Source: Hypomesus transpacificus
Taxonomy: Eukaryota > Chordata > Actinopteri > Osmeriformes > Osmeridae
DNA: 64,000 nt
Direction of reading: 5' to 3'
Assembly: GCF_021917145.1 (NCBI RefSeq)
Contig: NC_061065.1
Location: 11,777,412-11,841,411 of the forward strand
Shown here: piece after piece, positions 37,178 through 60,764 of the stretch
How positions within the stretch are numbered: position 1 is the first letter of the stretch
Layout: each line of letters begins with the position of its first letter
Translations under genes and position numbers: made by a program
The notes under the pieces: generated by a model
What the model was told of the DNA's origin: nothing
Seen by the model: only the letters and a program-made list of their open reading frames with translations
The model's database searches: none

Positions 37178-38332
37178 ATGGAACCAGGTCCTGGTATCAA
37201 AAGCTCTGACATGGTGGACCCCACTCATCTGTGTTATGAGAATGTCAACAGGTCCTGTGTCAGAGCCTACATCTTCTCTCCAGCTATAAAAGGGATCCTT
37301 TACATTATCTTCAGCTCGATGGTTGTGCTCACCGTGGCTGGAAATATGCTGGTTATCATATCTATCCTCCACTTTAAACAGGTATATTTGATTTTCATCC
37401 ATTTTTGCAGTATTGGTTTATGTACATTGTGCCTGCAGCATTACATGAAGGTCACCCTTTAAAGCAGCTAACCTAGGTGTGTCTCCCAGCAGCTCCACAC
37501 CCCCACCAACTACCTCATGCTGTCCCTGGCTGCGGCTGACCTGCTACTGGGGGCTTTAATTCTCCCTACCAGCATGACCTACTCTGTGGAGAACTGCTGG
37601 TACCTTGGACACCTGTTTTGTAAAATTCATGCCAGCACAGCCATCACTCTGGTCACCACATCTATCCTCAGCTTGTGTTTCATCTCTATTGACCGCTACT
37701 ATGCTGTTTGCCATCCTTTACGCTACACAACAGCTATCACTATTCAGTCAGCTTTGGTCATGGTGATGGTGAGCTGGGGAGTGTCTGCTCTGGTGGGCTT
37801 TGGGATGATCTTCCTGGAACTCAATATGCTGGGTGAAGAGGAGTTCTACTATGAGCATGTGCTCTGTGAGGGGGGTTGTGTGGTGTACCAGACTGCCACT
37901 GCTAGCTCCGTCTCCTCCTCTCTCTCCTTCTACCTCCCTGCACTCATCATGCTCTGCATCTACCTCAAGATCTTCCTGGTGGCCCAGAGACAGGCTCGCA
38001 GCATCCAGAGCACCACCTTTCAGAACCAGAAGTCTGGAGCTGTGGCCAGTAAGTCAGAGAGAAAGGCCTTCAGAACCCTGGCTATCGTCATGGGAGCATT
38101 TTTATGTTGCTGGACTCCGTTTTTTCTCTGCAATGTTTCCACTCCTTATCTTGTACACTCCAACCTTCCTCTTTTGATGGCAATCACAAATACAATGGGC
38201 TTTTCAAACTCCTTTCTTAATCCCATAGTGTATGCCTTCTTTTACAGTTGGTTCAGGAGGGCATTTAGGATGATTGTTTTTGGTTCCATATTTCAGCCAC
38301 AATCATCAAACACTAAATTGGTTTCAGAGTAA
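37178..38332 (+). CDS. TAAR-like receptor, gene 1 (two coding exons)
   Basis: Class A GPCR of 347 residues at the olfactory cell surface by family analogy. Exons are 37178-37381 (68 codons, TM1) and 37493-38332. The start is M-E-P-G-P-G, conserved in most copies of the array; an earlier in-frame ATG at 37109 lies in the presumed intron. Marks: sequon NRS and Cys in the N-terminus, SIDRYYAVC after TM3, CEGGC in loop 2, CWTP in TM6. TM7 carries NSFLNPIVYAFFYSWF, the TAAR signature. Position 3.32 (residue 118) is Ala, not Asp, so classical amine binding is not expected. Confidence 0.9.
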
Positions 38333-38504
38333 ATGTCTTAAAATGTCCTTGCTATTCTCCAGCTTTTAAATAACTTACATCTGGATTCAAAGTAAATTCA
38401 CCGTAGTACTACCAATCATAAACATGTAACATTTATGAACCACTGTACAATTTTTCTAACATTGCATTGTTGCTGTTATTACACATACAACTTGTGCACT
38501 TGTG

Positions 38505-38548
38505 TATGTCACTTTGGATAAAATCATCCGCTAAATGAATACAAATGA
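38505..38548 (-). repeat. Fragment of a dispersed fish repeat
   Basis: Short match to the ends of the elements at 39146 and 58113 (ACTTTGGATAAAATCATCCG, CTAAATGAATAC). Confidence 0.6.
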
Positions 38549-38799
38549 AGTGTTAATGTATGTAGAGAGTAATATAAATGGAGTTAGAGAGACAAAGGCC
38601 TCCAAAATGACTGTGTAACAGATGGAAGTATTCTTTGTTCTGAACTCTCTAAAAATAATATTTTGCCCCCAGCTATCCCAACATCCACCTGATAGAGTGT
38701 TGTATTTTCCAGATTCCTTCAATAAGACACAGCAACCCGGCCAGGCAAACATACACATTTACAAAAGTATGAATGTCAGTCCTGGTTCCTTGGGCTGAC

Positions 38800-39060
38800 T
38801 GAATGAGTCTGGGGCAACAAACAGTTGAGTCAGGATTCGAGTGGAAAGGAATTAGCAAAGGTCCAACAACTTTGACCCCATTGTCAGTTGTCTTCAACAT
38901 GATCAATAACTCTGACCACAAAAACCAGTCCAATGGGTTTGAGGAGCTGGGGGACACACCGCTGAAACAACTACCTATAAAACCTTAACCATATACATGC
39001 AACCTTCACAAGGAAAAAGATAAACGGACAAATACAAGGACTCTTAAAGCTGACAACTGG
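38800..39060. repeat. Segment duplicated from 35070-35330
   Basis: Diverged direct copy with shared blocks TTGTCAGTTGTCTTCAACA, GTTTGAGGAGCTGGGG, CTATAAAACC and ACCTTCACAAGGAAAA. Each copy has a TATA-like CTATAAA. Confidence 0.6.
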
Positions 39061-39145
39061 TCAGTTACAAGCTTCCAATAAGAACAACCTATGGTACTGT
39101 GACAACCACTGAGATAGTCATGGGTGTTCAACACTTAAATACATT

Positions 39146-39550
39146 TACATGTATTCATTTAGCAGACACTTGTATCCAAAGCGACTTCCAAGAGAGAGCT
39201 TTACAAAAGTGCATAAGTCACCGATCATAACAACGAGATAGCCCCAAACATTGCGGGCAGCCAAAACATGAAGCATACATTGTGAAAAACCAGATGAGTG
39301 CCAAAGGGAAGAACCATAGGAGCATGTTAAACAAGTTACAATTACATAAACTACATGAACCTCAAAAAGTGCAAGAGTGTACCTGTAGAAAAGCAATCAA
39401 CGGTAAAATATTTCACAGCGAGTACAATGATTTAAATCTGTTACAACTAACCAACAAAAGCAACAAGTCACTCAGTAAGAGTCATTGTGATCCTGGAGGA
39501 AACTAGCATCGGGTCCCGCAAATCATTCCGAATCATTCCCATTGTACTCC
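39146..39550 (+). repeat. Dispersed repeat, + copy
   Basis: Begins CATTTAGCAGACACTTGTAT, a motif common in fish interspersed repeats. It shares most of about 400 bp with the inverted copy at 57690-58113 (CATGAAGCATAC, GTGCCAAAGGGAAGA, CAATCAACGGTAAAATATTT, ATTGTGATCCTGGAGGAAAC). It continues into another repeat-like stretch to about 39790. Confidence 0.8.
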
Positions 39551-42290
39551 CGCCTCTTCTTGAAGGTGGGGAGACAGTCAGTGTCTCTGATGGATGTGGG
39601 GAGTTGATTCCACCATTGGGGGGCCAGACAGGAGAAGAGCTTGTGTTGGGACCGGGCCTCTTGAGCGGTGGGACCACCAGACGGTTGTCAGAAGAAGACC
39701 GTAGGTGGTGGGTGGGGGTGTAAGGCTAAAGGAGAGACTTGATGTAGTCGGGTGCATCATGCTGGTAGACTGGCGAGCAGTGAGTTGCAGTAGTCCAACT
39801 TTGAGAGGACAAGTGTTTGGACTTAGCCTGGCTGCCAGCCCAACTTCTCCCCGCCCACAAAAAATGTGTTCGGGAAGTTGGGTCTGGAGGGTCTCGTATT
39901 GGGGACAACTACAGAAAACCAGAATCGGGACGGACCAATGAAATTGCCAGGGCGGGCTTTGTACGATGATGGACAGATGATCAACAGTAACGTAATCAAC
40001 AACGTCACGAAAGAGCGCTTGGGTTTAATTCATTTTCAACAAACAACATATTACGTTGCTCTGATTGGTTGTAGGTCTCAGCTCTCACCCACTGTACATT
40101 CCTGTGACCAGGGATGTTGACCTCACCAAACTGGGAGATGGCTTGCTTTTGAAGGGTGAGCTGTACCAATGGGACAATGAGCGGAAGGTGCACTTCTCTC
40201 GAACTGTAGGGCTGTGGGAGCAGGTAATACCTGGCCCAGGTTACCCATCCCAGGGTTTGCTTGGGGCGAGGCCTGTGGGTCTGCCCAGGGCTTCCCTTGG
40301 GCTGGACTCAGGGATTCCCACTGTCCCTTGCATGCACTGACAGTTTGCTTGCTTGCTTCACTCTTCATTGTAGCAGCACAGCTCACTGATTCTTGAGAAG
40401 GTGGACAAAACAGGGTGCAACATTAAAAAAATTAAACCTTGTGCTCAGACAAATCAAACAGCATGAAGGTATCTAACGTGTACTAAGCTACTGAGCAATG
40501 CTTTGATATAACTTCCTAACCTGTCTTTTTTTTTCAAAATTAGCTTTTTACCTTGCCATCACTTACAAAGGCTCAACACCATCAGACACCAAAAATACAC
40601 ATTGATTTTAACTCAAATTATGCTAGACCCATGAGAATAATTGCAGTCACAAATTTTCGCCAAGGCTGACAAAGGCCGCAATTATTTATTTTTGAATTCT
40701 ATATATATACACAGTTTGAAAATTTCCGTCTGTGTTTCATTTATTGTACTGTTTAATATAATGTAAACTTTAACAGCAAACAAGATGTTTTTAAGATTTC
40801 AAAACACATCCTCTTGTTAGGAGATGGATTACATTTTTACATAATGACCAACAATTCCTCAACAGATACAAAATGTCATCATGAAATGCTTTTGTGGTTT
40901 TCAAGTAATTTCTCATTATATTACACATGAAAATAGGGTTTATAAATGCTGAATATGCGACAATACAACATAAATCTGATGGTGGTGATATCTCAGTGTT
41001 GACACATTAGGCATTTTTTTCACAAAATAAAAGGAGTTTATGTAATTTCCTCTTAGTTTATTTAGGGAGATTTTTCTTCTGATTTTGGAAGCTAGACCTA
41101 AAAGTAAACCCAGACTGACTAAACAAAAAAATATGTGTGTGTTGTAATCGACTCCCCTGACATTGTGAGGGAATGATAGCATTATACTGCTGATCAATGC
41201 TGCTATACCAATCAATATCTAATATGAATATGTAAACACACATGTTTTGTAATGCTAATAACTAAGATACAAATATTGAATGTGATCAATTGATTTAATA
41301 AAGTAACAGATAAGAAACATTGAAATGTAACTTTGGTGTGTGGACAAGAATGCAGATGTCAGGCAAACTGACTTGGGAGGCGAGTTTGTGACGCTCAGGG
41401 ACTGGTGTGAGCACAATGAGCTAGTCAGCTCATGGGAGTAAAAGTGTCAACTTGGGAGATAAGGTGATGCTGGGAACATAACTCTTCTCTGCTTCAGGAC
41501 GAGTCAGACCGGACAGTTCTTACTATGGATAATATGCCCCCTTCCCCTGGAGACCCTGCCCCCCCCCCTTCTCACTGTATGCCCCCCTTCTCCTTGGAGC
41601 CCATCTGCCCCTTTACATCATCTGACCTAGGAGTGGTCTTACCCTCTCCCCTTCCCCTTGAAGACCCCACCCCATATATCATCAGGACCTCGAGATGACC
41701 TGCTCTCAACTCTGGAGAACTCAAACCCCCCCCCCCCCCTTGGATTGCATCAGACCTGTGGGTCTTGTCCACCCCCCTCCCTGAACAACACCAGACCTGT
41801 GGGTCTTCTCTGCCCCCTCCCTCTCCTAACATCACCAGGTCCGTGGACTGCCCACCTTGCGCCAGCATGAACGCCCTGGACATTTAATTGGTTAACAATA
41901 GCCACCCCAAGGTCTCCTGACCAATGGCCACTCACCAGACCTCCCTCTCTGGGGAGTACAAGATCTGTCTCCCAAGGGCGGGGAGACAGAACTTGGGAGG
42001 GGCAGAACTTTCTCTGATATTCTGTCACGACCACTTTCTCAACGAAGGCCTTCGTTCGTTCTAATCTTATACTCTGTTTTGGTGGGACGACTGCTGTTGC
42101 ATCATCAACTGATTCATTGTACTAGACTACGGACATCTTGGTGTATTGTTTTCATTGTGTATCTTGTGATTGCATCATTACTAATTAAACTACAAATAAC
42201 TTGGTACAATGCTTAACCGTGTATCATTCTTCCTCTCAACACCCAGTTTACACTATCCTTAACAACATTTACTATATCTTCCTGATGTTA
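39551..42290. other. Intergenic region between TAAR genes 1 and 2
   Basis: No gene recognised. 39551-39990 looks like further interspersed repeats (GAGTTGATTCCACCATTGGG; CTGCCAGCCCAACTTCTCCC). 41520-41850 is C-rich with repeated CAGACCTGTGGGTCTT. The rest is AT-rich. Confidence 0.55.
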
Positions 42291-42360
42291 TCATGATGGT
42301 AATTATAGATGACATTTTCAGCAGTATCATTATACATACCGTATGCATGATTATCATCAG

Positions 42361-42441
42361 CGATTGTCATAGACTGTGGGTATTTAAGGATGATCCTCAA
42401 CTCTCGTCAGTTCAGAGGGTGGCAGCAGACCAGGGCTTCAG
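42361..42441 (+). promoter_or_regulatory. TAAR promoter/noncoding leader module, gene 2
   Basis: ATTGTCATAGACTGTGGGTA then TTTAAGGATGATCCTCAA, GTCAGTTCAGAGGGTGGCAG and a donor CTTCAG at GTAACC. A second conserved donor, GTAAGGAAAGG, lies near 42480. GGTAATTATAGATGA about 60 bp upstream is shared with gene 7. Confidence 0.65.
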
Positions 42442-42686
42442 GTAACCATAGATACATCACCATATACATTGCTTACAAGTAAGGAAAGGAACGTGGACAC
42501 AATATCATTGTTTATTTATTTGTATTCAAAAGATAGCCTTTTGAAATTGACTATTTGATCATCTTAATTTTGAGGGGGGAAAACCTTTTATACTTATTCA
42601 TAATGACAAATGATGTAATGTCTCCTCTACCTCCACTCTACCTCCCTCCTTTACCTCCCTCTACCTCCCTTGCAGGTTCCAGCAGT

Positions 42687-43927
42687 ATGGATATAGGTCC
42701 TAGTGTCCCCAGCTCTGACATGCCGAACTCCATTCATCTGTGTTATGAGAATGTCAACAGGTCCTGTGTCAAAGCCTACATCTTCTCTCCTGCAGTAAAG
42801 GATATTTTTTACCTTATCTTCAGCTCCATGATTGTGCTCACCGTGGCTGGAAACATGCTGGTTATCGTCTCCATCCTCCACTTTAAACAGGTATGTTTGA
42901 TTTACATCACATGTTGTAGTGCTAAGACTGGTTATATTAGTGTTACATATGGTTAACCAACTCATGCTTATCCTAAAACTTAAGATGTACCTAACGCATG
43001 TAGCTAACCAGAAGTTTAAATCAAGTTTATAGTCTTTACAGTGTCTGACCCAGGTGTGTCTCTCATCAGCTCCACACTCCTACCAACTTCCTCATCCTGT
43101 CCCTGGCTGCAGCTGACCTGCTGTTAGGGGTTCTAGTCATCCCTTTCGCTTTTGCCTACAATGTGGAGAACTGCTGGTATCTGGGGCACTTTTTCTGTAA
43201 GATACACATAAGCCTGGCCATGACTTTAGTCACCGCGTCCATCATCAACCTAAGTTTCATCTCTATCGACCGCTACTATGCAGTGTGTCGTCCTCTGCAC
43301 TACAGAACAACCATCACTGTTCAGACATCTCTGATCATGGTGATGGTGAGCTGGGGAGTGTCTACTCTAGTGGGCTTTGGGACAATATTCCTGGAGCTCA
43401 ACATCCTGGGTGAAGAGGAGTTCTACTATAAGCATGTGCTCTGTGAGGGGCTGTGTGTGTTTTACCTGACAGCCACCTCTCGCTCCATCTGCACTTTACT
43501 CTCCTTCTACCTCCCTGCACTCATCATGCTCTGCATCTACCTCAAGATCTTCCTGGTGGCCCAGAGACAGGCTCGCAGCATCCAGAGCACCACCTTCCAG
43601 AACCAGAACTCTGGAGCTGTGGCCAGCAAGTCAGAGAGAAAGGCCTTCAGAACCCTGGCTATTGTTATGGGAGCATTTCTATGTTGCTGGACTCCTCTTT
43701 TTCTCTGCATTGTGGCAACTCCTTATCTCGTACACACTAACCTTCCACTGGTTTTGGCAATCGCAAATAGCATTGGCTATTCAAACTCCTTTCTTAATCC
43801 TATAGTGTATGCCTTTTTTTACAGCTGGTTCAGGAGGGCGTTTAGGATGATTGTTTTTGGTTCCATATTTCAGCCACAATCATCAAACACAAATTTGTCC
43901 GGCATTAATAATATACGTTTGAATTGA
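42687..43927 (+). CDS. TAAR-like receptor, gene 2 (altered C-terminus)
   Basis: Exons 42687-42890 and 43070-43927 give 353 residues, with the full set of TAAR marks. Ala at 3.32 and Cys at 5.42 (SRSICTLLSFYLP replaces SSVSSSLSFYLP in TM5). The tail ends SSNTNLSGINNIRLN rather than SSNTNLVSE. Compared with gene 3, a deletion of about 50 bp after AAACACAAATTTG removed the usual stop and the frame runs on. Gene 2 and gene 3 are close duplicates, including 3' flanks. Confidence 0.9.
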
Positions 43928-43980
43928 AAGGATATTAACCATAGTAAAGTAAAATATGAATATATATATATATATATATA

Positions 43981-44202
43981 CAGTGCCCTCCAAAAGTATT
44001 GGAACAGTGAGGCGAATTCCTTTATTTTTGCTGTAGACTGAAAACATTTGGGCTTGACATCAAATAATGAACGTGAGACCAGAGATCAACGTTTCAGCTT
44101 TTATTTCCAGGTATTTACATCAGGATCTGATGCACAACTAAGAAAATATCACATTTTGTTTGAATCCACCCATTTGTCATGTGATCAAAAGTATTGGAAC
44201 AG
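43981..44202. repeat. Tc1 left terminal inverted repeat
   Basis: Pairs with 45419-45641 with few mismatches over most of its length. The inner transposase-site copy is at 44187-44202. Confidence 0.9.
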
Positions 44203-44234
44203 ATATACTTAAAACATATTTAAGTGAATAAGAC

Positions 44235-45308
44235 TTAATATTTAGTTGCAAATCCTTTGCTTTCAATAACTGCAGCAAGTCTGTGACCCATTGACGTCAC
44301 CAAACTTTTGCATTCTTCCTTTTTGATGCTTTCCCAGGCTTTCACTGCAGCCTCTTTCAGTTGTTGTTTGTTTTTTGGGGTTCCTCCCTTCAGTCTCCTC
44401 TTAAGCAGGTAAAATGCATGCTCTATAGGGTTTAAGTCTGGAGATTGACTTGGCCAGTCTAATACCTTCCATTTCTTGCCCCTGATGAACTCCTTTGTTG
44501 TTTTGGCAGTGTGTTTTGGGTCGTTATCTTGCTGCATGATGAAGGCTCTGCCAATCAGTTTGGTTGCATCTTTCCTTAAATTGGCAGACAAAATGTTTCT
44601 GTAGACTTCCGAGTTCATTTTGCTGCTGCCATCATGTGTTACATCCTCAATGAAGATTAATGAGCCCGTCCCAGAAGAAGCCATGCAAGCCCAAGCCATG
44701 ACATTACCTCCACCGTGTTTCACAGATGAGCTTGTGTGTTTGGGATCATGAGCAGTTCCTTTCTTTCTCCAAACTTTAGCCTTTCCATCACTTTGGTAAA
44801 AGTTAATCTTTGTCTCATCAGTCCATAAAACTTTGTCCCAGAATTTTTGAGGTTCATCTCTGTACTTTTTGGCAAATTCCAGCCTGGCCTTCCTATTCTT
44901 CTTGCTAATGAGTGGTTTGCATCTTCTGGTGTAGCCCTTGTACTTTTGTTCATGAAGTCTTCTGCGAACAGTAGATAGTGATACCTTCACTCCTGCCATC
45001 TGGAGGTTGTTGCTGATCTCACTAACAGTTGTTTTAGGGTCTTTCTTTACAGCTCTCACAATGTTTCTGTCATCAACTGCTGATGTTTTCCTTGGTCTAC
45101 CTGTTCGACGTCTGTTACTTAGTACACCAGTAGTTTTCTTCTTCTTCAGGACATTCCAAATGGTTGTACTGGCTATGGCCAATGTTTCTGCAATGGCTCT
45201 GATTGATTTTCCATCTTCTCTAAGACTCACAATTGCTTGTTTTTCACCCAAAGACAGCGCTCTGGTTTTCATGTTGTTTTCACCTCTGAATACAGTCTGC
45301 ATAGACAA
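44235..45308 (-). CDS. Tc1-like transposase (DD34E)
   Basis: Up to 357 residues, or 345 from the second Met (MKTRALSLGEKQAIV), which is closer to the family's usual length of about 340. An N-terminal paired-like HTH (IRAIAETLAIASTTIWNVL) is followed by a GRPRK linker and a second HTH (TVRRRLHEQKYKGY). The catalytic triad is WTDETKINF, QQDNDPKHTA and NPIEHAFYLL, with 34 residues between the second D and E. No stop or frameshift breaks it, so it may still encode active enzyme. Confidence 0.95.
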   Translation of the reverse strand: MSMQTVFRGENNMKTRALSLGEKQAIVSLREDGKSIRAIAETLAIASTTIWNVLKKKKTTGVLSNRRRTGRPRKTSAVDDRNIVRAVKKDPKTTVSEISNNLQMAGVKVSLSTVRRRLHEQKYKGYTRRCKPLISKKNRKARLEFAKKYRDEPQKFWDKVLWTDETKINFYQSDGKAKVWRKKGTAHDPKHTSSSVKHGGGNVMAWACMASSGTGSLIFIEDVTHDGSSKMNSEVYRNILSANLRKDATKLIGRAFIMQQDNDPKHTAKTTKEFIRGKKWKVLDWPSQSPDLNPIEHAFYLLKRRLKGGTPKNKQQLKEAAVKAWESIKKEECKSLVTSMGHRLAAVIESKGFATKY

Positions 45309-45418
45309 AACCTATCTTACCCAATCTGAACCTGAGTGTAGACATTCAGTGGTATTTATTGATTGAATAATGTATGTAATAGGACACACCTGGGCAACAA
45401 AACACACCTGTCAGTCAC

Positions 45419-45641
45419 ATGTTCCAATACTTTTGCTCACGTGACAAATGGGTGGGTTCGAACAAAAAGGTGATATTTTCTAATTCGTGCATCAGATCTT
45501 GATGTAAATACCTGGAAATAAAAGCTGAAACGTTGATCTCTGGTTTCACATTCATCGTTTGATGTCAAGCCCAAATGTTTTCAGTCTACAGCAAAAATAA
45601 AGGAATTGGCCTCACTGTTCCAATACTTTTGGAGGGCACTG
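45419..45641. repeat. Tc1 right terminal inverted repeat
   Basis: Inverted partner of 43981-44202. Differences include AATGAACGTGAG versus AACGATGAATGTG-type positions, so the arms have drifted slightly. Confidence 0.9.
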
Positions 45642-45643
45642 TA

Positions 45644-46780
45644 TATGTTTGTGTACAAATTATGAACTAAACCATTTTCTAAACATTGTTGTGATTATTA
45701 CATGGATTCAATAACCGTTATTATATTAATTTGTTACAACCTCAAATTATTATTGATTGTTTACAAAGACAAATGCGGACTGTAATTTGTTCAATAAGAG
45801 TGATCATGTTTCTAATGTTTCTGCAAACATTTTGTAATGTGATCCAGTAATCAACTAGTACACTTTGGGGCCGACAAATAAAACATATGTTATAATCATC
45901 CATTGTTTCCTTTTCTGCAGACAATTAAAGTATTCAGTTATATTTGCATTATTGCAGACGTTGTGTATTATGTAATAGTGTCAAAATATGCATGGTATGG
46001 TTTAATTTCCAAAACACAATTGATGAAATATTTACCACTATTACTAAATTGATATCATATTTAATAAATTCCTTAACAAAGAAAAAATACAATCAGGAAA
46101 GGGAATAAACTTTGATAGACAACATACTAAATAACTACTTAAATATGTTCTCATTTACATTACATAAGTTGACTGTCCCTATATGCTTACTTCTTTGTCT
46201 TTAAATACACTGGAACTCATGTCTTAGGCTTTTAATTCACTTATGGTCAAAATTCTAACATTTAATCAATTTTCTGAAATTTTTCACCAGATACTTTCTT
46301 TCAGAGCCTCATCCATGAACTGAACCTAACTACCGTACAGGAAAGACATTTTCTAACCACAGTGTGCCAAAATACACATATAGTAGTTGCCTGACCACTT
46401 TCACACAGTTACAATACGTTTAGGCAGCCAACGATGAATTGAGTTACAGTATGTATGAAATGTGTTGTGATTTCTACATGTTGAAACAAAAATGTATGAA
46501 TATAATCTTTAATATAACCTGAGAATGTGCACTTAAACTATTTGTGAATTGTTTGATTGTAAATCTAAAACTGTGGGGTACAGGGGAAAAAATGTTTAAA
46601 AGAATTGACATAAACATGGAATGCACTGTATAACACAAACTGGCTCGTACAGATTTTACACCTCATAACATAAACTATAAAAATATTTACTTTACATTTG
46701 TCCCCTCATATTTAGTTGAGATCATTTTTTTTTTGCTTTATTATGACTACCTGTACCAATGCACAGTTGTGTCTGATTGG
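45644..46780. other. AT-rich spacer, duplicated 3' flank of gene 2
   Basis: 45650-46010 matches 48350-48760 downstream of gene 3 (CTCAAATTATTATTGATTGT, TTATATTTGCATTATTGCA). No gene was seen in the remainder. Confidence 0.65.
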
Positions 46781-46854
46781 CTATAGCATCATAATGTTCT
46801 CATTATGTTAATTAGAGAAGAGAATTGTACACGTTGGATGCATGGTAATCAAAA

Positions 46855-47084: not shown

Positions 47085-48260
47085 ATGGAGCAGGGTTCTG
47101 ATGTTTCCAGCTCTGACATGGTGGACTCCATTCATCTGTGTTATGAGAATGTCAACAAGTCCTGCGTCAAAGCCTACATCTTCTCTCCTACTGTCAAATG
47201 TATTTTCTACATTATCTTCAGTTTTATGGTTGTGCTCACAGTAGCTGGAAACATGCTGGTTATTGTCTCAATCCTCCACTTCAGACAGGTATGTTTGATT
47301 TACATTTCTATCTATAGTCTTAGGGACTTTTGCAGTAAAACATTTTGCATGTAGCTGACTAGAAGTTTAAATCAAGTTTATATTTTTCAAAGTGTCTGAC
47401 CCAGGCGTGTCTCTCATCAGCTCCACACTCCCACCAACTTCCTCATCCTGTCCCTGGCTGTAGCTGACCTGCTGCTGGGGGTTCTAGTCATCCCTTTTGC
47501 TTTTGCGTACAATGTGGAGAACTGCTGGTATCTGGGGCACTTTTTCTGTAAGATACATGTAAGCTTGGCCATGACTCTGATCACTGCATCCATCATCAAC
47601 CTAAGTTTCATCTCTATCGACCGCTACTATGCAGTGTGTCGTCCTCTGCACTACAGAACAACCATCACTGTTCAGACATCTCTGATCATGGTGATGGTGA
47701 GCTGGGGAGTGTCTGCTATGCTTGGGTTTGGGACAAATTTCCTGGAGCTCAACATCCTGGGTGAAGAGGAGTTCTATTATGAGCATGTGCTCTGTGAGGG
47801 GGGCTGTGTGGTGTACCAGACAGCCACTGCTAGCTCCGTCTCCTCCTCTCTCTCCTTCTACCTCCCTGCACTCATCATGCTCTGCATCTACCTCAAGATC
47901 TTCCTGGTGGCCCAGAGACAGGCTCGCAGCATCCAGAGCACCACCTTCCAGAACCAGAAGTCTGGAGCTGTGGCCAGCAAGTCAGAGAGAAAGGCCTTCA
48001 GAACCCTGGCTATTGTTATGGGAGCATTTCTATGTTGCTGGACTCCTATTTTTCTCTGCATTGTGGCAACTCCTTATCTTTTAAACACTAACCTTCCACT
48101 GGTTATGGCAATCACAAATAGCATTGGCTATTCAAACTCCTTTCTTAATCCTATAGTGTATGCCTTTTTTTACAGTTGGTTCAGGAGGGCGTTTAGGATG
48201 ATTGTTTTTGGTTCCATATTTCAGCCACAATCCTCAAACACAAATTTGGTGTCGGAATAA
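47085..48260 (+). CDS. TAAR-like receptor, gene 3
   Basis: Exons 47085-47288 and 47421-48260 give 347 residues. All TAAR marks are present; the N-terminus is M-E-Q-G-S-D and the ICL1 junction reads HFRQ. Ala at 3.32 (CKIHVSLAM). Closest relative in the array is gene 2, with near-identical TM2-TM4 text and shared flanks. Tail ends SSNTNLVSE. Confidence 0.9.
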
Positions 48261-49700: not shown

Positions 49701-49714
49701 ATGAGAATTCCCAG

Positions 49715-50037: not shown

Positions 50038-51292
50038 ATGGATTCAGGTCCTGGTATCAACAGCTCTGACATGGTGGACTCCATTCTTCTGTGTTATGAG
50101 AATGTCAACAGGTCCTGTGTTAGAGCGTATATCTTCTCTCCTGCTCTTAGAGGGACTATCTACCTTATCTTAAGCTCCATTATTGTGCTCACTGTGGCTG
50201 GAAACATGCTGGTTATCATCTCTATTCTACACTTCAAACAGGTATGTTTGACTTTCATCTCAATTTGAACCAATGGGGAATGCTATATTGCTATTCAGAT
50301 TCAGATTACCCTAAAACCTAAGTCTACTTTATAGATATTATTTATTTTTGCACTTTAAGGAAAACTGTCTACATTTTAACTTTGTGAACCACATCCAAGA
50401 CTTCTTAAGTATAAAGTATAACAATATCTGACCCAGGTGTGTCTCCCAGCAGCTCCACACCCCCACCAACTTCCTCATTCTGTCCCTGGCTATAGCTGAC
50501 CTGCTGCTGGGGGTTCTTGTACTTCCTTTCAGGATGATCTATACTGTGGAGAACTGCTGGTACCTGGGGCACTTCTTCTGTAAGATACATATAAGCTTGG
50601 TCATGACTCTTGTCACCGCATCCATCATCAACCTAAGTTTCATCTCTGTTGACCGCTACTATGCAGTGTGTCGTCCTCTGCACTACAGAACAACCATCAC
50701 TGTGCAGTCAGCTTTGATCATGGTGCTGATGAGCTGGTGGGTGTCTGCTCTAGTCGGCTTTGGGACAATATTCCTGGAACTTAACATCCTGGGTGAAGAG
50801 GAGTTTTACTATAAGTATGTGCTCTGTGAGGGAGGCTGTGTGACATACCAGACTGCCACTGCTAGCTCCGTCTCCTCCTCTCTCTCCTTTTACCTTCCTG
50901 CACTCATCATGCTCTGCATCTACCTCAAAATCTTTCTGGTGGCCCAGAGACAGGCTCGCAGCATCCAGAGCACCACCTTCCAGAACCAGAAGTCTGGAGC
51001 TGTGCCCAGCAAGTCAGAGAGAAAGGCCTTCAGAACCCTGGCTATCGTTATGGGAGTCTTCCTGTGTTGCTGGACTCCTTTTTTTCTTTGCAATGTGTCC
51101 ATTCCGTATATTGTAGACACTAACCTTCCACTTTTGCTACGAATCACAATTACAATTGGATATTCAAACTCCTTTCTTAATCCCATAGTATATGCCTTCT
51201 TTTACAGTTGGTTCAGGAGGGCATTTAAGATGATTGTTTTTGGTTCCATATTTCAGCCACAATCATCAAATATTAAGTTGGTCTCAGAGTAA
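50038..51292 (+). CDS. TAAR-like receptor, gene 4
   Basis: Exons 50038-50241 and 50453-51292 give 347 residues. TAAR signature in TM7 and SVDRYYAVC after TM3 (Val for Ile). Val at 3.32 (CKIHISLVM). Pro replaces Ala in the otherwise uniform SGAVASKSE segment of ICL3 (GAVPSKSE). Shares GTTATGGGAGTCTTCCTGTG in TM6 with the inverted gene 5. Tail ends SSNIKLVSE. Confidence 0.9.
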
Positions 51293-52856
51293 ATCATAAT
51301 TACTCATGATATCTATTGTTGTCCACCCTTTTGAAATTTCATGCTTGACTAATTAATGTGCTGAACAGTTGATACAGACATTATTAAAATACATGAAAAA
51401 ATCTATTGGACATGAAAATCTTTTGACTTTTGTTTAATTTAAAAACCCGAGGCAGGAAATCTGCAGAAGCCAGTTTGTGTTCACTCCCCGTCACTTCACT
51501 AAATGAAATAATAGGTTGTCTGACAAAAATAAATCACTGTGAAAATAGCAGGTTAGGCAACTAACAAAACAGAAGTGTCAGTCGGCCTGTGGCCTGCCAT
51601 GTGGTCCAATATGATGTTTACTCTGTGTTTACTGTGTGTATGATATGTACATAGCAATCAAACACTCCTTCTGGATCATCCAAAATTGCGAGACCTACCT
51701 ACAATATAATCTTCAAACCAATTAGGATGAAACATGGTATTTGGAATTTTTATATATTTAACAGTAATGCTATTTTAAGCAATTACCAGCCAAAAATGTA
51801 ACCTGAATGGAATTACATATCCATCATTTATGTAATTTCAAAATATCAAAATAGTACAGATAGTAGTGTAGACTGCAGATAGAATATGTAGGAAACTATC
51901 ATGAAGACAGTTTTAAGACATGTATTTGCCACAAATGGGCCAAACCTTGGGCAACATGTTGTAGTGGCTTAGGTAAAACTGTATTTCTTAAAATGAATGG
52001 TATGTGGCTGCCGCTGGTCAACCTTGCTAGTCGATCCTTGTCATGAAAACAAGTGTTTGAGGGTCATTTGCCACCTCAAATAATAGTTCAGTTATAAACA
52101 CCACATGATCCAGAACAGATCAGATAACATTAATATACTAAAGTGGTTGTGTGCAGACTTGTGTCTGTTTGTTCTATGTTTCAGAATTCCCAACAAGGGA
52201 ATGCCATACATTGCTAGGCAATTGCTAATACACACAACTTATTAAGCTAGTAAGAAGCCAATTTACTGTAACTCATAATTTTCAGTAAACAGGCTTGATA
52301 AACCTCAAAGTTTAATAGTTGGATACTAGATCATGTTACAGCATTTCAAGTTATAATATTATTTACGTTGGAAAAAACAAACATTTTAAAACATTAAAAG
52401 TTTTCTAATTAGACGCTGCATTTTTGCCCATTGAAGTGAATCATTAGCCAGTTAGGGAAGGTCACACTGAAGGATAGATTACATATTTATTCTGACAAGA
52501 AGATATAATGATTGTTTAATAACAATTACAATACAGTGCAATCTTTTTATTACACAGTATAGTTAATAAATTGTACCTACATTTTCTGCCCAATTAAGTT
52601 ATATATTAGGAAGTTTTTTGACATTTCATGAACTACTGTACACAGAGAAAATCATGGTAATTTATGACAACTGGATACAACATTAATGTTCTTTATGTTT
52701 AATATCATATATTTAAGGTTTGAAAAAATGTTATTAAATTACAGAAATATGTTTTCTGGTATGTTTGTGGGTTTGTATTTCTTGTATTTCTATAAAACCC
52801 TAATTTAAAGTGATAAAAGGCTGGACAGTAACATAAATATTATTTGACATTTTAAT
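51293..52856. other. Intergenic AT-rich spacer
   Basis: Lies between the convergent genes 4 and 5. No gene, RNA or repeat recognised. Confidence 0.6.
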
Positions 52857-54130
52857 TTAATCTGATACCAATTTAGTGTTTGATGATTGTGGCTGAAATA
52901 TGGAACCGACGACAATCGTCCGAAATGCCCTCCTGAACCAACTGTAGAAGAAAGCATACACAATGGCATTGAGAAAGGAGTTTGAGAATCCAATTGAAGA
53001 CGTTACTATCATCAAAAGAGGAATGTTAGAGTCTTCGATATAAGGAGCGGAAATATTGCAAAGAAAAAAAGGAGTCCAGCAACACAGGAAGACTCCCATA
53101 ACGATAGCCAGGGTTTTGAAGGCCTTTCGTTCTGACTTGCTGGCCACAGCTCCAGAGTTCTGGTTCTGGAAGGTGGTGCTCTGGATGCTGCGAGCCTGTC
53201 TCTGGGCCACCAGGAAGATTTTGAGGTAGATGCAGAGCATGATGAGTGCAGGAAGGTAGAAGGAGAGAGAGGAGGAGACAGCGCTAGAAGTGGCAGTCTG
53301 GTATGCCACACCACAGCCACCCTCACAGACCACATGCTCATAGTAGAACTCCTCTTCACCCAGGATGTTGAGCTGCAGGAATATTGTCCCAAAGCCCACT
53401 AGAGCAGACACTCCCCAGCTCACCAGTACCATGACCATAGTTGACTGCACAGTGATGGTCCTAGTGTATCGGAGAGGACGACACACTGCGTAGTAGCGGT
53501 CAATAGAAATGAAACAGAGATTAATGATTGAAGCTGTGACCAATGTCATGGCCAGGCTGGAGTGGATCTTACAGAAGATGTCTCCCATGTACCAGCAGTT
53601 CTCCACAGTGACCACCATGCTGGGAGGGAGGACTAGAACCCCCAGCAGCAGGTCAGCTACAGCCAGGGACAGGATGAGGAAGTTGGTGGGAGTGTGGAGC
53701 TGCTGGAAGACACACCTGGGTCAGACAGTGTGAAACTATGTACAGTACTCTTGATGTACTAAATTTAAGCATCCAGTATAATAACACAAAGTAATAATAG
53801 TGCAAACTTAGAATCAAGCTTACCTTACCTTAAGTCAGGTTTGAGTTTTAGGATAAGCGTGATTTGTTTCACCTAATACAATTACGTCAATGTAACAGTC
53901 TGAAATGTGGCGTAAACCGAACATACTTGTTTGAAGTGAAGGATGGAGATGATAACCAGCATGTTTCCAGCCACGGTGAGCAAAATGATGGTGCCAAATA
54001 TGATGTAAACAACCCCTTTTACAGCAGGAGATAAGACGTATGTCATGACACAGGACTTGTTGACATGCTCATAACACAGATGGATGGAGTCCACCATGTG
54101 AGAGCTGTTGATACCATGACCCGGCTCCAT
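52857..54130 (-). CDS. TAAR-like receptor, gene 5 (inverted)
   Basis: Exons 54130-53927 and 53699-52857 on the minus strand give 348 residues. One extra residue sits in loop 2 (CEGGCGVAYQTA). Ala at 3.32 (CKIHSSLAM). The donor is CAA-GTATGT rather than CAG-GTATGT, as also in gene 6. Tail ends SSNTKLVSD. It is the only member on this strand, and its promoter module is also inverted, so the unit flipped as a whole. Confidence 0.9.
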
Positions 54131-54378
54131 ACTGCAGAAACCTGTAGGAACAATTAGAGAAGCCGGGGAAAGGTGTGGATAGGAAGGAGAAAGCAAAGTA
54201 AGAAAGATAATATATACTTATTGTGAACAAATAACATTAACAGTAACAATAACAAGCTTGAAAAAGAGCATTATTTGTTATCAAATCAATCTATTTCAAA
54301 TGACTTTCAAATGCAAAACAAATTAAATAATACTTGTTCATGTTGCGTTCCCTACTTGATGGTCATATAGGTGGTGGT

Positions 54379-54480
54379 GGTGTATCTATGGTTATCTGAC
54401 ACCTCTGTCTGCTGCTACCATCTGTATTTTCTGAAGTTGAGCTTCATCCTTATGTACCCAGTCTGTGACCATTTCTGGTC
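54379..54480 (-). promoter_or_regulatory. TAAR promoter/noncoding leader module, gene 5
   Basis: On the minus strand: GGTCACAGACTGGGTACATA, AGGATGAAGCTCAACTTCAG and ATGGTAGCAGCAGACAGAGG. The first donor is changed to CAGATAACC. A GTAGGGAACG follows near 54355. Confidence 0.58.
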
Positions 54481-54489
54481 ATTCTCATA

Positions 54490-55640
54490 CATATGCACAA
54501 TTACGCCGATTACCTCATCATGATAGTGGGAATGGTCTACTATTGGCCAACCAGATATGGACAACTCTGTATGGTGTTTGGTTTGCTTTAGCGCTAGTCA
54601 AAACAACCCACATATGTATGCTATTCATCATATTAGAGGCAATTATTCTGTACTGACAACACACAAAGTTAAAAAAGCTTTTTTCAATAGGGTTTTCTTT
54701 ATGAAATGCTATCTAGCTAACAGCTGGACAAAAAAAATTGGATACTTCACTTTCAGTATGTATCAGTGAATTTTATTATGTTTGTGAATTATTGTGTTAA
54801 CTAATGCAGCAACTCTTACTGTGGTATGCAAATGTGAACAAACTCCAACTAAGGAATCACCCCAAAATATTACTAACATTTTAATAATTAACTATCAAGG
54901 GCTGCGTATTACAGATACAGACACTGCACCATCATCATAGTATATTTTCTGTGTATCTCTGTGTCACTGAATCAAGTAATTGTAATCTTACCAAAATCTT
55001 ACTCACCATCTTTATCATGGCACAGGCACTGCACTATAATAATAATAATAGTTCCAGGAATCTCTGTGTGTGACCGTGTGTCAGTGAATCAACTGACTAA
55101 CATCTCAATCATTGGCTACATCCCGGGCATAGGCACTGGACTAGTCATACTATAATGCCAGGAATCTCCGTGTGTATGTCTGTCTTTCTGTGACTTTATT
55201 ATATTGCCAACTGGGCATTGTACGAAATTGATATCTGGCCAGTGTATGGCTCAGGACTCAAGGATGTGCCGTGAAGTGGGTGAAGTTAGTGGACTTATTT
55301 AAAAAAATATGTTTAAGACATATTATCTGCAAAAGTGACTAGATGATGTGGAGGTTGAGTACTTACATTTTTATTGTGATCTGCGGTCTGAGAAATGTAG
55401 CTGCCTAGCCACTGAGAATACACTGTCATCACCAGCTGCATCACAAGCACTGTAATATATTTATCTATGATTCCAGAAATCTGTATATCACTGACATTTT
55501 ACTCACCAACTACATTATGGGCATTGTGCCTTATCTATAATTCCAGGAATGTGTGTGTGTCTCAATGACATATCATTCAATTAATAACTTTGTTCCTCTT
55601 AACTGCAAGAACTAGCTGGCAACCAGCCATGAGTGTATTG
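54490..55640. other. Intergenic region between divergent genes 5 and 6
   Basis: No gene recognised. 54920-55600 holds about five degenerate copies of a unit of roughly 100 bp with CACTGCACTATAAT and CCAGGAATCTCTGTGTGT. Confidence 0.55.
54920..55600. repeat. Degenerate tandem repeat of about 100 bp
   Basis: Shared blocks are GGCACTGCACTATAATA, TTCCAGGAATCTCTGTGTG and GTCAGTGAATCAACTGAC. The copies are diverged and unevenly spaced. Confidence 0.55.
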
Positions 55641-55689
55641 GCCAAATCTGTTAATGGTTATAGATGATGACATCATCAGCATCATGAGA

Positions 55690-55756
55690 ATCATTGTCAT
55701 AAGGATGAACCTCATCTCCAGTCTGTTCAGATGGTGACAGCAAACCGGGGCATCAG
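55690..55756 (+). promoter_or_regulatory. TAAR promoter/noncoding leader module, gene 6 (TATA-like part deleted)
   Basis: ATCATTGTCATAAGGATGAA then CCTCATCTCCAGTCTGTTCA, ATGGTGACAGCAAACCGG and donor CATCAG at GTATCC. Compared with the other modules about 15 bases (AGACTGTGGGTACAT) are missing between GTCAT and AAGGATGAA. The leader ATG gives a short uORF if spliced to TTAAC at 55965. Confidence 0.55.
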
Positions 55757-55978
55757 GTATCCATGCACAAACCCACCACCATCTCAGTGTTAAAACAGTT
55801 TTGTATTCTTATCTTATCTGTACTCTAATCTTTCAAAAAAGCATTTAGATTTCATAACATATGTATATTTTGATAACTTATAATTGTTTATTATAATTGT
55901 AGAACATGTGTTCACAATAAGATTTAAACTCTAGTCTTATTTTTCCTCCTGTCTTCCTCTCCAGTTAACTCCAGCAGC

Positions 55979-57610
55979 ATGGAGCCAGGTCCTGGTGTCC
56001 CCAGCTCTGACATGGTGGACTCCATTCTTCTGTGTTATGAGCATGTCAATGGGTCCTGTGTCAGAGACCTTGTTTTCTCCCCATGTTTAAGAGTGATCCT
56101 CTACCTCCTTGTCAGCTCCATAGTTGTGCTCACTGGGGCTGGGAACATGCTGGTTATCGTCTCCATCCTCCACTTTAAACAAGTATGTTCAAATTTTTCC
56201 ACAATATAGGATGTTGTTATATTGGTGAACCAAATCAAACCCACCTTTCCCTCAATTGGCAATTTCGGAGAAAGTTTAAATTTAACCTTGTGAACAAAAT
56301 CAAGTTTACATTCTAAACACCAGTGATTAAAGTTAAAAACTAATATTAAATGAACAAAACATTTTAATAATATCCATCTAAAGACTTCCACTTATGAAAG
56401 TGGAAACTTTTGATTATTTACAAATTCACATGCCTCCAGTTTGGTTTAACCTGTCTGTAGCATATTATTTTATTTTTTTTGCTGCAAAACATAAGTGACA
56501 ATACTATTGTTTGATCTGCTCTGTTGTGCTCAGATATTGGTATTACTGTGATTATATATCATTGTATCTAGCACTATGATGGGAGTCATTATTCCTCAGT
56601 AGGTATCTGGCATAGTATATTTTTGTCTGGCATGCTGGATACATTTAGCAAATGTATAACTTTTTAGATTTTGATGAACTTCAAACTTTAGGCAATTGGT
56701 AACTTCCTAGGGTTTACTCTGCTTTTCAATGATGTGATTTCATTGTATTTTACATAGTTGCATCTCCCTGCAGCTCCACACCCCAACAAACTTCCTCATC
56801 CTGTCCCTGGCTGTGGCTGACCTGCTGTTAGGGGTTCTAGTCCTCCCTTTCAGCATGGTGTACACCATAGAGAACTGCTGGTACCTGGGGCACCTCTTCT
56901 GTAAGATCCACTCCAGCATTGACATCACTTTGGTCACCGCATCCATCATCAACCTAAGTTTCATCTCTATTGATCGCTACTACGCAGTGTGTCATCCTCT
57001 ACGCTACACGAGGACCATCACTGTTCAGACAGCTCTAATTATGATATTGGTTATCTGGGGAGTGTCTGTTTTTGTGGGTTTTGGGATAATATTCCTGCAT
57101 CTAAACATCCTGGGTGAAGAGGAGTTCTACTATGAGCATTTGCTCTGTGAGGGGGGCTGTGTGTTATACCAGACAGCCACCTCTAGCTCCGTCTCCTCCT
57201 CTCTCTCCTTCTATCTTCCTGCACTCATCATGCTCTGCATCTACCTCAAGATCTTCCTGGTGGCCCAGAGACAGGCTCGCAGCATCCAGAGCACCACCTT
57301 CCAGAACCAGAAGTCTGGAGCTGTGGCCAGCAAGTCAGAGAGAAAGGCCTTCAGAACCCTGGCTATTGTTATGGGAGTATTTTTATGTTGCTGGACTCCT
57401 TTTTTTCTTTGCAATGTCTTCAGTCCTCTTCTTGGAGACTCTAGCCCCCCACTTCTTACTGGCACACTAATCATTGGCTATTCAAACTCCTTTCTCAATC
57501 CCATAGTGTATGCCTTCTTTTACAGTTGGTTCAGGAGAGCATTTAAGATGATTGTTTTTGGATCAATATTTAAGCCAGGATCATCAAACACTAAATTGGT
57601 CTTGGAGTGA
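55979..57610 (+). CDS. TAAR-like receptor, gene 6 (keeps Asp3.32)
   Basis: Exons 55979-56182 and 56774-57610 give 346 residues, with the longest intron of the array (591 bp). It is the only member with Asp at 3.32 (codon 118, 56921-56923, CKIHSSIDITL), so it may bind amines by the classical salt bridge. TM7 signature intact (NSFLNPIVYAFFYSWF). N-terminal sequon NGS. Tail ends PGSSNTKLVLE. Loop 3 differs from the others (FSPLLGDSSPP). Confidence 0.9.
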
Positions 57611-57689
57611 ATTTGATCTGGATTGTCATATCCATCGTCTTGTTCATATATTTCCTAATATGAGATGTCTTCCCTGTCGTTTATTCACA

Positions 57690-58113
57690 CTTGTTCCGGG
57701 AGTACAACGGCACTTAGGATGCTTGATTGGACCTGATGTTAGTTTCCTCCAGGATCACAATGGCTCTCTCTGAGAGACTTGTTGCTCTTGTAGGTTAATT
57801 ATAACGAAGTTAACTCTCGAATCCTTGTACTGGCTGTGAAATATTTTACTGTTGATTGTTCTTCTACATGTACAGTCGTGCACTTTTTGGGGTTCATGTT
57901 GTTTTTAATTTGTAACTTGTAAAACTGCATGCTCTTACGGGTCTTCCCTTTGGCACTTGTTTAGTTGTTCACAACGTATGCTTCATGTTTTGGCTGCTTG
58001 CACTGTTTGGACTACCTCGTTGTTATGATCAGTGACCTATGCTCTTTTGTAAAGTTCTCTCTTGGAAGTCACTTTGGATAAAAGCGTCTGCTAAATAAAT
58101 ACATGTAAATGTA
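57690..58113 (-). repeat. Dispersed repeat, inverted copy
   Basis: Reverse complement of the element at 39146-39550. It ends CTTTGGATAAAAGCGTCTGC then TAAATAAATACATG. Confidence 0.8.
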
Positions 58114-58221
58114 GTAGTAGTAAATGTAAATGTATCCCAACCCAATGTATGAAATTAAATAAAAGTACATATTATCATGAACATTTTGTTACATGTCATA
58201 CTATGTATATATATATATTAT

Positions 58222-58257
<36 letters not shown>

Positions 58258-59060
58258 ATTGTATGATGAATACACAATGATGAATCAAACATCTCTCACT
58301 GTTCTCCACCACATCTTAGCACTCCACGGAGGTAAATCACCTCAGTCTTACTTCATTAAAGGGAAGCAGTGATAGTCCTGGGCATTCATGAACGTGCAGG
58401 TGTCATGCAAAATACCAAATAACTGATGTTCTTTAGTCACAAGCACTCAGAACCCTTTATATCGGATGACCCTAATTTTCTTATCCACATAGACATTCAC
58501 CAGATGTCTTGTCAACAGAGAGATTTTGATGCACTTGACACCTTTATGGATCCAAAGTTTTAATCCAGCCCAATTATTTATTTGATTTTTAAAATAATTA
58601 TTCTGTAAAGTAATTGGCAGGCAGGCTTTTTTTCCGAATAGAATTATTTGATCACTTCCGCCTCTAAAATGTCAGAATTTTGCCAATTTCAAAGGTGAAA
58701 AAAACTAAAAACAAGCTAAATAGCAACAGAACCTCTTTCCTTGCCAGTCTGAGCTGTGCAGACACAACCTACATGGACACTGTCCAGAGCAAGTGTTTTG
58801 TTTTCCCTGGTTATTGGCTACCCTCCAGCCTATTGTAACATGTTCCCACTGTTGTTAGCAAACGATAAGCTGATCCACCATTTTTTTAAGTTGTAAAATG
58901 TTTATGATTTATTAATGAGAGTTATAACGGTTTTCTGACTATTATGAGCAGGAAGAAAAGACCCTGTCAATATCCCATTTATATCTGAACACAGATGGCC
59001 AACTGAGGACATCTCTGCATACATCTACATGTCTGATAAAGGATAACAGTGGAAGGTTCT
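58114..59060. other. Intergenic region between genes 6 and 7
   Basis: Contains an AT-dinucleotide tract at 58205-58258. Nothing else recognised. Confidence 0.6.
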
Positions 59061-59126
59061 AATTATGGTAATTTTAGATTATGATTTCATCAGAATCATT
59101 ATACATATTCATTCTGGTCATCAGAC

Positions 59127-59245
59127 ATCGTCATAGTCTGTGAGTATATACAGATGAACCTCTACCCCAGTGAGTTCAGAGGGAGGCAGCAGACCAAGGC
59201 TTCAGGTAACCATAGCTACACCACCACATACATGACTAACATGTA
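59127..59245 (+). promoter_or_regulatory. TAAR promoter/noncoding leader module, gene 7
   Basis: CATCGTCATAGTCTGTGAGT, ATATACAGATGAACCTC, GTGAGTTCAGAGGGAGGCAG and donor CTTCAG at GTAACC (59215). Second donor ACATGTAAGGA near 59243. CTAATTATGGTAATTTTAGA about 70 bp upstream. Confidence 0.63.
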
Positions 59246-59484
59246 AGGAACGCAAAATGAAAACCAGTTTTGTTATAAACAGAATGCTGTGAAGAGGATA
59301 TTGTTTGTGTGTGTATGTGTATAGGATATCAGAATCAGAATTTGGTTTTATTTGACATGTAGGTTTGAACAATGGATGAATATGTTTAAAAATAATATTA
59401 TATATTCAGTGAATTTTTGAACCGGAATTATGCAATTGTTTGTTTTGTCTCTTCTCCCTTGGCTTTCCTGCAGGTTCCAGCAGT

Positions 59485-60764
59485 ATGGAGCCAAGACCTG
59501 GTATCAACAGCTCTGATATGGTGGACTCCATTCATCTGTGTTATGAGAATGTCAACAAGTCCTGTGTCAGAGCCTACGTTTTACCTCCTGCTGCAAAAGG
59601 GGTCCTCAACATTATCTTTAGCTGTATGGTTTTGCTCATCGTAACTGGAAACATGCTGGTTATTGTCTCCATCCTCCATTTTAAACAGGTATATTTACAT
59701 CACTTTTGGACTATTGAGGACTATTACATTTGTCTCTTTGAGCAGTTTCAAAAAGGAAACTGTTGAATATTTACAATTAATTTGGTATACTAAGGACTAA
59801 GCTCTCTAAATATTCATCCTTCTCTCCTACGCTATTCGACATATACTCTGATCTAACATGCTTTTTTAGGGAAACACAAATACTTCTATGCATCATTGTC
59901 ACTCATCTACTGTGTGTGTTCCATCAGCTCCACACCCCCACTAACTTCCTCATCCTGTCCCTGGCTGCAGCTGACCTGCTACTGGGAGTTCTAGTCATCC
60001 CCTTCAGCATGGTGTACATCATAGAGAACTGCTGGTACCTGGGTCAGATCTTCTGTAAGATCCACTCCAGTGTATCAATTACATCAATCACGACCTCCAT
60101 TGTCAGCCTCAGTTTCATTTCTATTGACCGCTACTATGCCGTGTGTCATCCTCTGATCTACTCAAGAACCATCACTGTTCAATCAGCTGGAATCATGGTG
60201 ATGGTGAGCTGGGGGGTGTCTGCTTTGGTGGGCTTTGGAATGATTTTCCTGGAGCTCAACATCCTGGGTGAAGAGGAGTTCTACTATGAGCATGTGTTCT
60301 GTGAGGGGGGCTGTGTGTTATACCAGACAGCCACCTCTAGCTCCGTCTCCTCCTCTCTCTCCTTCTACTTACCTGCACTCATCATGCTCTGCATCTACCT
60401 CAAGATCTTCCTGGTGGCCCAGAGACAGGCTCGCAGCATCCAGAGCACCACGTTCCAGAACTAGAACTCTGAAACTGTGGCCAGCAAATCAGAGAGAAAG
60501 GCCTTCAGAACCCTGGCAATAGTTATGGGAGCATTTCTATGTTGCTGGACTCCTTTTTTCTTCTGCAATGTCTTAAGTCGTTTTCTTGGAGAAGCCAACC
60601 TTCCTCTTCTTTTGGGAACAGCTACTATTGGCTGGTCAAACTCCTTTCTCAATCCTATTGTGTATGGTTTCTTTTACAGTTGGTTCAGGAGGGCGTTTAG
60701 GATGATTGTTTTTGGTTCCATATTTCAGACTCAATCGTCAAACACTAAGCTGTTCTCAGAGTAA
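59485..60764 (+). pseudogene. TAAR-like receptor, gene 7, single in-frame nonsense
   Basis: Exons 59485-59688 and 59928-60764 keep one open frame of 346 codons, except for TAG at 60462-60464 (codon 247, in intracellular loop 3). All intact copies have CAG (Gln) there, so one C-to-T change explains it. The rest, including CWTP and NSFLNPIVYGFFYSWF, is undamaged, so the loss is recent or allelic, or could be a base error. As read, the product lacks TM6 and TM7. Ser at 3.32 (CKIHSSVSI). The shared promoter module is present. Confidence 0.85.

Follow-up and report, generated by a model that had tools for sequence, protein, structure and literature searches.

Positions 37178-60764 of the window, by which we mean the whole 64,000-nucleotide stretch of Hypomesus transpacificus DNA analysed here (contig NC_061065.1, positions 11,777,412-11,841,411), hold seven trace amine-associated receptor (TAAR)-like genes in tandem. 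Most of them lack both aspartates known to anchor amines in this receptor family: Asp3.32 is gone in six of the seven copies, and Asp3.32 and Asp5.42 are both gone in five of the six copies with an intact reading frame. From sequence comparison, we consider it somewhat probable that the array is a tandem expansion of olfactory-type TAARs, nearest to TAAR1 among the references compared, in which the amine anchors were dismantled and the pocket was retuned copy by copy. We infer an olfactory role for it.

Array structure and the two amine anchors

Six genes lie on the forward strand and gene 5 on the reverse strand. Each consists of two exons separated by a single phase-0 intron of 111-591 bases in intracellular loop 1 (ICL1), with donor CA(A/G)-GTA and acceptor CAG-CTC (hyphens mark the splice point), so that the junction falls between Gln and Leu of the motif HF(K/R)Q-LHTPTN. 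The joined proteins of the six intact genes are 346-353 residues long. The general receptor motifs DRY, Trp6.48, Cys3.25 and Cys45.50 are kept in all seven copies, and the TAAR fingerprint of transmembrane helix (TM) 7, NSxxNPxxYxxxYxWF, is present in its strict form in six; gene 5 reads NAxxY, and the control, human HTR4, does not carry the fingerprint. Queries with the exons of the seven genes and with four reference receptors found no additional copies in the window.

The seven copies were aligned with MAFFT to eight references: human TAAR1, zebrafish TAAR13a, TAAR13c, TAAR13d and TAAR13e, mouse TAAR7f, mouse TAAR9 and human HTR4 (the first seven are the TAAR references below). Ballesteros numbering was set on human TAAR1 from the anchors Asn1.50, Asp2.50, Arg3.50, Trp4.50, Pro5.50, Pro6.50 and Pro7.50 and moved to the other sequences by the alignment. 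Residue 3.32 in genes 1-7 is Ala, Ala, Ala, Val, Ala, Asp and Ser, encoded by GCC (genes 1, 2, 3 and 5), GTC (gene 4), GAC (gene 6) and TCA (gene 7). Residue 5.42 is Ser in six copies (TCC) and Cys in gene 2 (TGC); a misnumbered 5.42 was considered and dismissed, as the count from Pro5.50 and the alignment concur. All eight references carry Asp3.32 and all four TAAR13s carry Asp5.42, which is found in none of the window copies. Because position 3.32 takes four residue states in seven copies while the ratio of nonsynonymous to synonymous change (dN/dS) over the whole gene is 0.29, its variation is more than chance.

A preliminary description of this DNA, made from the letters and their open reading frames, had assigned the same residues to 3.32 and 5.42 in every copy and had reported both known aspartate anchors absent from most of them; alignment to the zebrafish and mammalian references and a check of the codons bear this out. 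Its count of seven receptors holds for genes, and for intact reading frames becomes six, gene 7 being interrupted by a TAG codon. It had also pointed to serines at 5.42, 5.43 and 5.46 as an alternative polar patch, which is present in six copies; gene 2 has Cys5.42, Thr5.43 and Ser5.46. As an argument for function this patch carries little weight: it falls within or next to a tract whose synonymous sites, too, are near-identical between copies, so gene conversion may account for its sameness.

Pocket changes beyond the anchors

The change is wider than the preliminary description had it. The seven TAAR references all have Arg2.64, Asp6.58 and Trp7.40, along with an Asp or Glu at 7.36, and every window copy has other residues at these four positions. 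The MAFFT alignment places a gap near 7.37 in genes 6 and 7; counting from Pro7.50, residue 7.36 is Thr in gene 6 and Leu in gene 7 rather than Gly, and it is non-acidic under either alignment. Asp6.58 or Asp/Glu7.36 as a third anchor is ruled out, since both are missing in all seven copies. An Asp or Glu shared by all members, which would have told against the preliminary description, was found at none of 40 pocket positions.

What these residues do elsewhere is known in part. Asp6.58 is reported as the outer cadaverine site of zebrafish TAAR13c, and its mutation gives a supersensitive receptor; Arg2.64 borders one entry path; and Trp7.40 mutants of TAAR13c still answer cadaverine with a half-maximal effective concentration two- to fourfold higher (PMC4914996), so that loss of Trp7.40 alone says little. 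In lamprey TAAR365 and mouse TAAR9, Glu7.36 is described as aiding the binding of polyamines (PMC8546428).

Basic residues appear where no TAAR reference is basic: Arg2.61 and Arg7.36 in gene 4, Arg5.39 in gene 2 and Arg6.59 in gene 7. The net charge at the 40 pocket positions is 0, +1, 0, +2, 0, -1 and +1 in genes 1-7, and -2 or -3 at the same positions in the seven TAAR references and HTR4. In genes 1, 3 and 5 every position on this list is uncharged. On the outer side, all seven copies share Glu2.67, glutamates in extracellular loop (ECL) 2 and Glu45.47, also in ECL2; position 2.67 is acidic in all seven TAAR references as well, and none of the eight references has Glu45.47. In genes 4-7 ECL3, too, has an acidic residue, Asp or Glu, at alignment columns 320-321.

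Selection and the homogenised tract

The dN/dS of 0.29 (Nei-Gojobori, 21 pairs of the seven copies) is unevenly distributed: 0.38 in exon 1, 0.26 from TM2 to ECL2, 0.15 in TM5-TM6, 0.70 between 6.54 and 7.44, and 0.13 from 7.45 to the end. Across the six intact copies, 37 TM pocket positions have an amino-acid diversity of 0.364 and 187 other TM positions one of 0.166, an excess reached in none of 20000 permutations. Sixty-six numbered positions do not vary among the seven TAAR references; of these, 5 of 12 in the pocket and 7 of 54 elsewhere are changed in at least four copies (Fisher p 0.034). The array as a whole is thus under purifying selection with change concentrated in the pocket. Such a pattern is that of diversifying receptors rather than of genes in free decay, even with a broken gene 7 and a gene 5 that lacks Pro7.50.

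In all seven copies the codons from 5.54 into ICL3 (about 37949-38070 in gene 1, for example) make up a near-identical tract, synonymous sites included. Fourfold-site diversity is 0.046 over 5.40-6.53 (25 sites) and 0.249 elsewhere (62 sites; scan p 0.0023). Gene conversion is the likely cause, with DNA-level constraint as a possible alternative.

Phylogenetic placement

Human TAAR1 was the best PDB sequence match of both genes searched, with 306.7 bits for gene 6 (251.2 for the best TAAR13) and 290.5 bits for gene 3 (241.5 for the best TAAR13). The ranking placed TAAR1, TAAR13, TAAR9 and TAAR7f above the beta-1 adrenergic and H2 receptors, and lamprey TAAR348 was interleaved with beta-1 receptors. 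The copies are 75.7-88.5% identical among themselves, 47-51% to human TAAR1 and 41-44% to zebrafish TAAR13c. In the trees they form one clade (support 100); the references represent fish clade III by TAAR13a, TAAR13c, TAAR13d and TAAR13e only, and fish clade Ia sequences were not included. Adding unverified sequences of mouse TAAR4 and human TAAR2 gave a free tree that joins the array to TAAR1 (support 84), and on the same unverified sequences membership of clade Ib (TAAR2-4 and TAAR12), tested as a grouping with TAAR2/TAAR4, was rejected in the approximately unbiased (AU) test (p 0.01).

By these comparisons kinship with TAAR1 is likely but unproven, and a clade III placement is disfavoured (AU p 0.014-0.069). 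If the array lies outside clade III, as it probably does, Asp3.32 would have been lost without the prior gain of Asp5.42 that has been proposed for that clade. Within the array, the best protein trees have gene 6 branching off first (support 54-82), and likewise when the 3.32 column and the homogenised tract are removed; this would mean a single loss of Asp3.32. Of the rootings compared by AU tests, with two column sets and twelve constrained trees per set, only those with gene 2 or gene 3 first were rejected.

Proposed mechanism and alternative explanations

We propose that the common ancestor of the array would first have lost the vestibule acids and Trp7.40. Gene 6, having kept Asp3.32, may bind monoamines well and would still do so through that residue, and the other copies would have dropped the salt bridge and had their pockets retuned. 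Genes 1, 3 and 5 would then bind neutral polar or hydrophobic odorants through hydrogen bonds and packing, and gene 4 (Arg2.61, Arg7.36), perhaps also gene 2 (Arg5.39), would bind anionic odorants; downstream signalling is presumed to run through cyclic adenosine monophosphate, as in other olfactory TAARs. Because both aspartates and two further acidic amine-contact positions (6.58 and 7.36) are gone, non-amine ligands or another binding mode, as the preliminary description had suggested, can fairly be inferred, and the gain of basic residues by genes 4 and 2 strengthens the case. The array is not uniform in this respect, since gene 6 may be a monoamine receptor of the classical kind and the frame of gene 7 is interrupted. 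The weight of the aspartates is illustrated by reports that charge-neutralising mutations eliminated the amine response when made at Asp3.32 in TAAR10a and TAAR12h or at Asp5.42 in TAAR16c and TAAR16f, and reduced or abolished it in the TAAR13s and TAAR14d (PMC4695389). A bolder form of the proposal, which we advance tentatively and think rather doubtful, is a TAAR1-like fish subfamily with inverted ligand charge, in which the acidic amine contacts would have been dismantled, gene 4 with Arg2.61 and Arg7.36 would receive anionic odorants, and gene 6 would be a surviving intermediate, all without an Asp5.42 step.

Several observations weigh against the proposed expansion of TAAR1-like, amine-abandoning receptors. 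The free tree of the PDB-derived references, rooted on HTR4, sets the array beside TAAR13, TAAR7f and TAAR9 (support 69) and not with TAAR1; against that tree, TAAR1 as sister (AU p 0.44) and a position outside all reference TAARs (0.16) are not rejected, and the TAAR13 grouping is (0.014). The TAAR13 grouping has p 0.031 in a set without the free tree and reaches 0.069, no longer rejected, once the unverified TAAR4 and TAAR2 sequences are added, so the placement of the array is unsettled. Rootings on genes 1, 4, 5 or 7 were not rejected, and genes 6 and 7 form a pair (support 60) in a codon tree from which the homogenised tract was left out. The list of 40 pocket positions is our own choice among known aminergic contacts. 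Amines could be drawn by Glu45.47 in ECL2 and by the acids that genes 4-7 have in ECL3. An AlphaFold2 model of gene 4 exon 2, made with the six intact exon 2 sequences, was discarded (mean predicted local distance difference test score 35.8), and a ligand-facing direction of the gained arginine side chains is therefore presumed.

The acids just mentioned bear on a different account, in which the copies are still amine receptors of a third mode, the cation being held by aromatic residues (such as Phe6.52, 6.51 and 7.43), Ser or Thr side chains, and loop acids such as Glu45.47, with no helix aspartate. Phe6.52 and an aromatic residue at 7.43 are kept in all seven copies, modelling of TARLL1b suggests that indole is bound through Phe5.38 in place of Asp3.32, and the same source allows that other sites may account for the few TAARs without either aspartate (PMC8890504). 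However, position 45.47 sits between two ECL2 cysteines and, going by TAAR1 numbering, would lie outside the helix bundle; Phe6.51 is gone in genes 2 and 3, the Tyr7.43 hydroxyl is gone in genes 1 and 5, and genes 2 and 4 carry basic pocket residues. We think this account unlikely.

The tree tests also speak to the suggestion that the copies are clade III TAARs which lost Asp5.42 secondarily after losing Asp3.32, as zebrafish TAAR19f, which has neither aspartate, may have done (PMC4695389). An ICL1 intron is common among the class III genes of cichlids and of some other fishes (PMC4415300), and the p value of 0.069 leaves the TAAR13 grouping some room. The values of 0.031 and 0.014, from PDB-derived references in which TAAR13s alone stand for clade III, point the other way, as do the higher identity to TAAR1 and the position of the intron, between Gln and Leu and two codons past the Phe-Arg/Lys site of most spliced cichlid genes; a clade III origin seems to us quite improbable. 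The remaining alternative is a decaying array, from which Asp3.32 has gone since the receptors bind nothing any more. The premature stop in gene 7 and the missing Pro7.50 in gene 5 fit it. Against it, the reading frame and the splice sites are intact in six copies, dN/dS is 0.29 overall and 0.13-0.15 in TM5-TM6 and after 7.45, and change is focused on the pocket, although gene conversion could have lowered apparent divergence in part of the gene. We think decay very improbable.

Comparison with known TAARs

Clade Ia comprises TAAR1 and the teleost TAAR10, TAAR11, TAAR21 and TAAR27 (PMC8890504). The array resembles it in that human TAAR1 is the best match among the references and the sister position is compatible with the AU test (p 0.44). 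It is unlike TAAR1 in missing Trp7.40, Asp6.58, Asp7.36 and Arg2.64 and in the ICL1 intron of every gene, and, whereas nearly all clade I and II TAARs are reported to keep Asp3.32 (PMC8890504), the array has lost it in six of seven copies. Teleost clade III (TAAR13-20, 22-26 and 28-31) is likewise made up of fish expansions, most members of which lack Asp3.32, but Asp5.42 is given for 84 of the 85 zebrafish TAARs without Asp3.32 (PMC4695389) and the array has Ser or Cys there. Li et al. (2015) describe clade III members as using Asp5.42 instead of Asp3.32 and propose that the gain of Asp5.42 preceded the loss of Asp3.32 (PMC4695389). This order of events probably does not apply to the array, because the array is not grouped with TAAR13 in the best trees. 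Zebrafish TAAR19f, compared by description only, also lacks Asp3.32 and Asp5.42 according to a figure legend of the same paper; it is reported there as the sole such zebrafish TAAR, unlike the several copies in the array.

A study of cichlids and five other fishes describes every spliced TAAR gene as class III and the class I genes as unspliced; in most of the spliced genes the ICL1 intron follows a Phe codon (PMC4415300). The array intron lies two codons past the cichlid site, which may point to a separate gain. Apart from TAAR19f and the "few TAARs" mentioned in PMC8890504, we found no description of a TAAR array with neither aspartate in the mostly open-access literature, supplements excluded.

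The array is real and, judged by its sequences, a variant beyond TAAR19f and the few published anchor-less TAARs; its ligands are predicted. That fish TAARs without Asp3.32 detect non-amines is an earlier proposal. An array that lacks both anchors and more, yet is apparently constrained, offers a suitable case for asking if any TAAR has abandoned amines entirely, and gene 6 and its neighbours form a natural series of pocket variants.

Features of the individual genes

Gene 1 (forward) has exon 1, coding for the N-terminus and TM1, at 37178..37381 (open frame, donor CAG-GTATAT, homology to the other exon 1 copies), its phase-0 ICL1 intron at 37382-37492 and exon 2, coding for TM2-TM7, at 37493..38332, with Ala3.32 at 37640-37642 and Ser5.42 at 37913-37915. 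Gene 2 (forward) has exon 1 at 42687..42890, its start picked by alignment to the other copies (further upstream ATGs are at 42618 and 42603), and exon 2 at 43070..43927, with Ala3.32 at 43217-43219, Cys5.42 at 43490-43492, Arg5.39 and Leu6.51. All seven genes were rebuilt with their introns. Gene 3 (forward; exons 47085..47288 and 47421..48260) has Ala3.32 at 47568-47570, Ser5.42 at 47841-47843 and Ile6.51. Gene 4 (forward; 50038..50241 and 50453..51292) has Val3.32 at 50600-50602, Ser5.42 at 50873-50875, Arg2.61 at 50531-50533 and Arg7.36 at 51140-51142.

Gene 5 runs opposite to the genes around it (reverse strand; exon 1 at 53927..54130, exon 2 at 52857..53699). It has Ala3.32 at 53550-53552 and Ser5.42 at 53274-53276, Ala in place of the highly conserved Pro7.50 at 52965-52967, and one extra residue right after Cys45.50. 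Gene 6 (forward; 55979..56182 and 56774..57610) is the sole copy with Asp3.32 (GAC, 56921-56923), and its Ser5.42 is at 57194-57196. Gene 7 (forward; 59485..59688 and 59928..60764) has Ser3.32 at 60075-60077 and Ser5.42 at 60348-60350. Its in-frame TAG at 60462-60464, in ICL3, stands where the other six copies have CAG; the predicted protein ends after 246 residues, without TM6 and TM7, and gene 7 is probably a pseudogene.

Rest of the window

Rfam (gathering thresholds) and ARAGORN (bacterial code) gave no matches over the window. Genes 2 and 3 are separated by, among other sequence, a Tc1-like transposase reading frame of 357 residues on the reverse strand (44235-45311), with the domains HTH_Tnp_Tc3_2 and DDE_3. 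Several long minisatellite arrays, with units of 12, 20, 27 and 40 bases, lie upstream of the cluster at 8688-9073, 13286-13947, 17322-17788 and 21410-21738. Further upstream, the segment 6010-6330 (forward) matches human receptor tyrosine phosphatase mu as its sole PDB match (E 1.5e-26) and belongs to a PTPRM/PTPRK-type gene. PTPRK and the TAARs share a chromosome arm in human.

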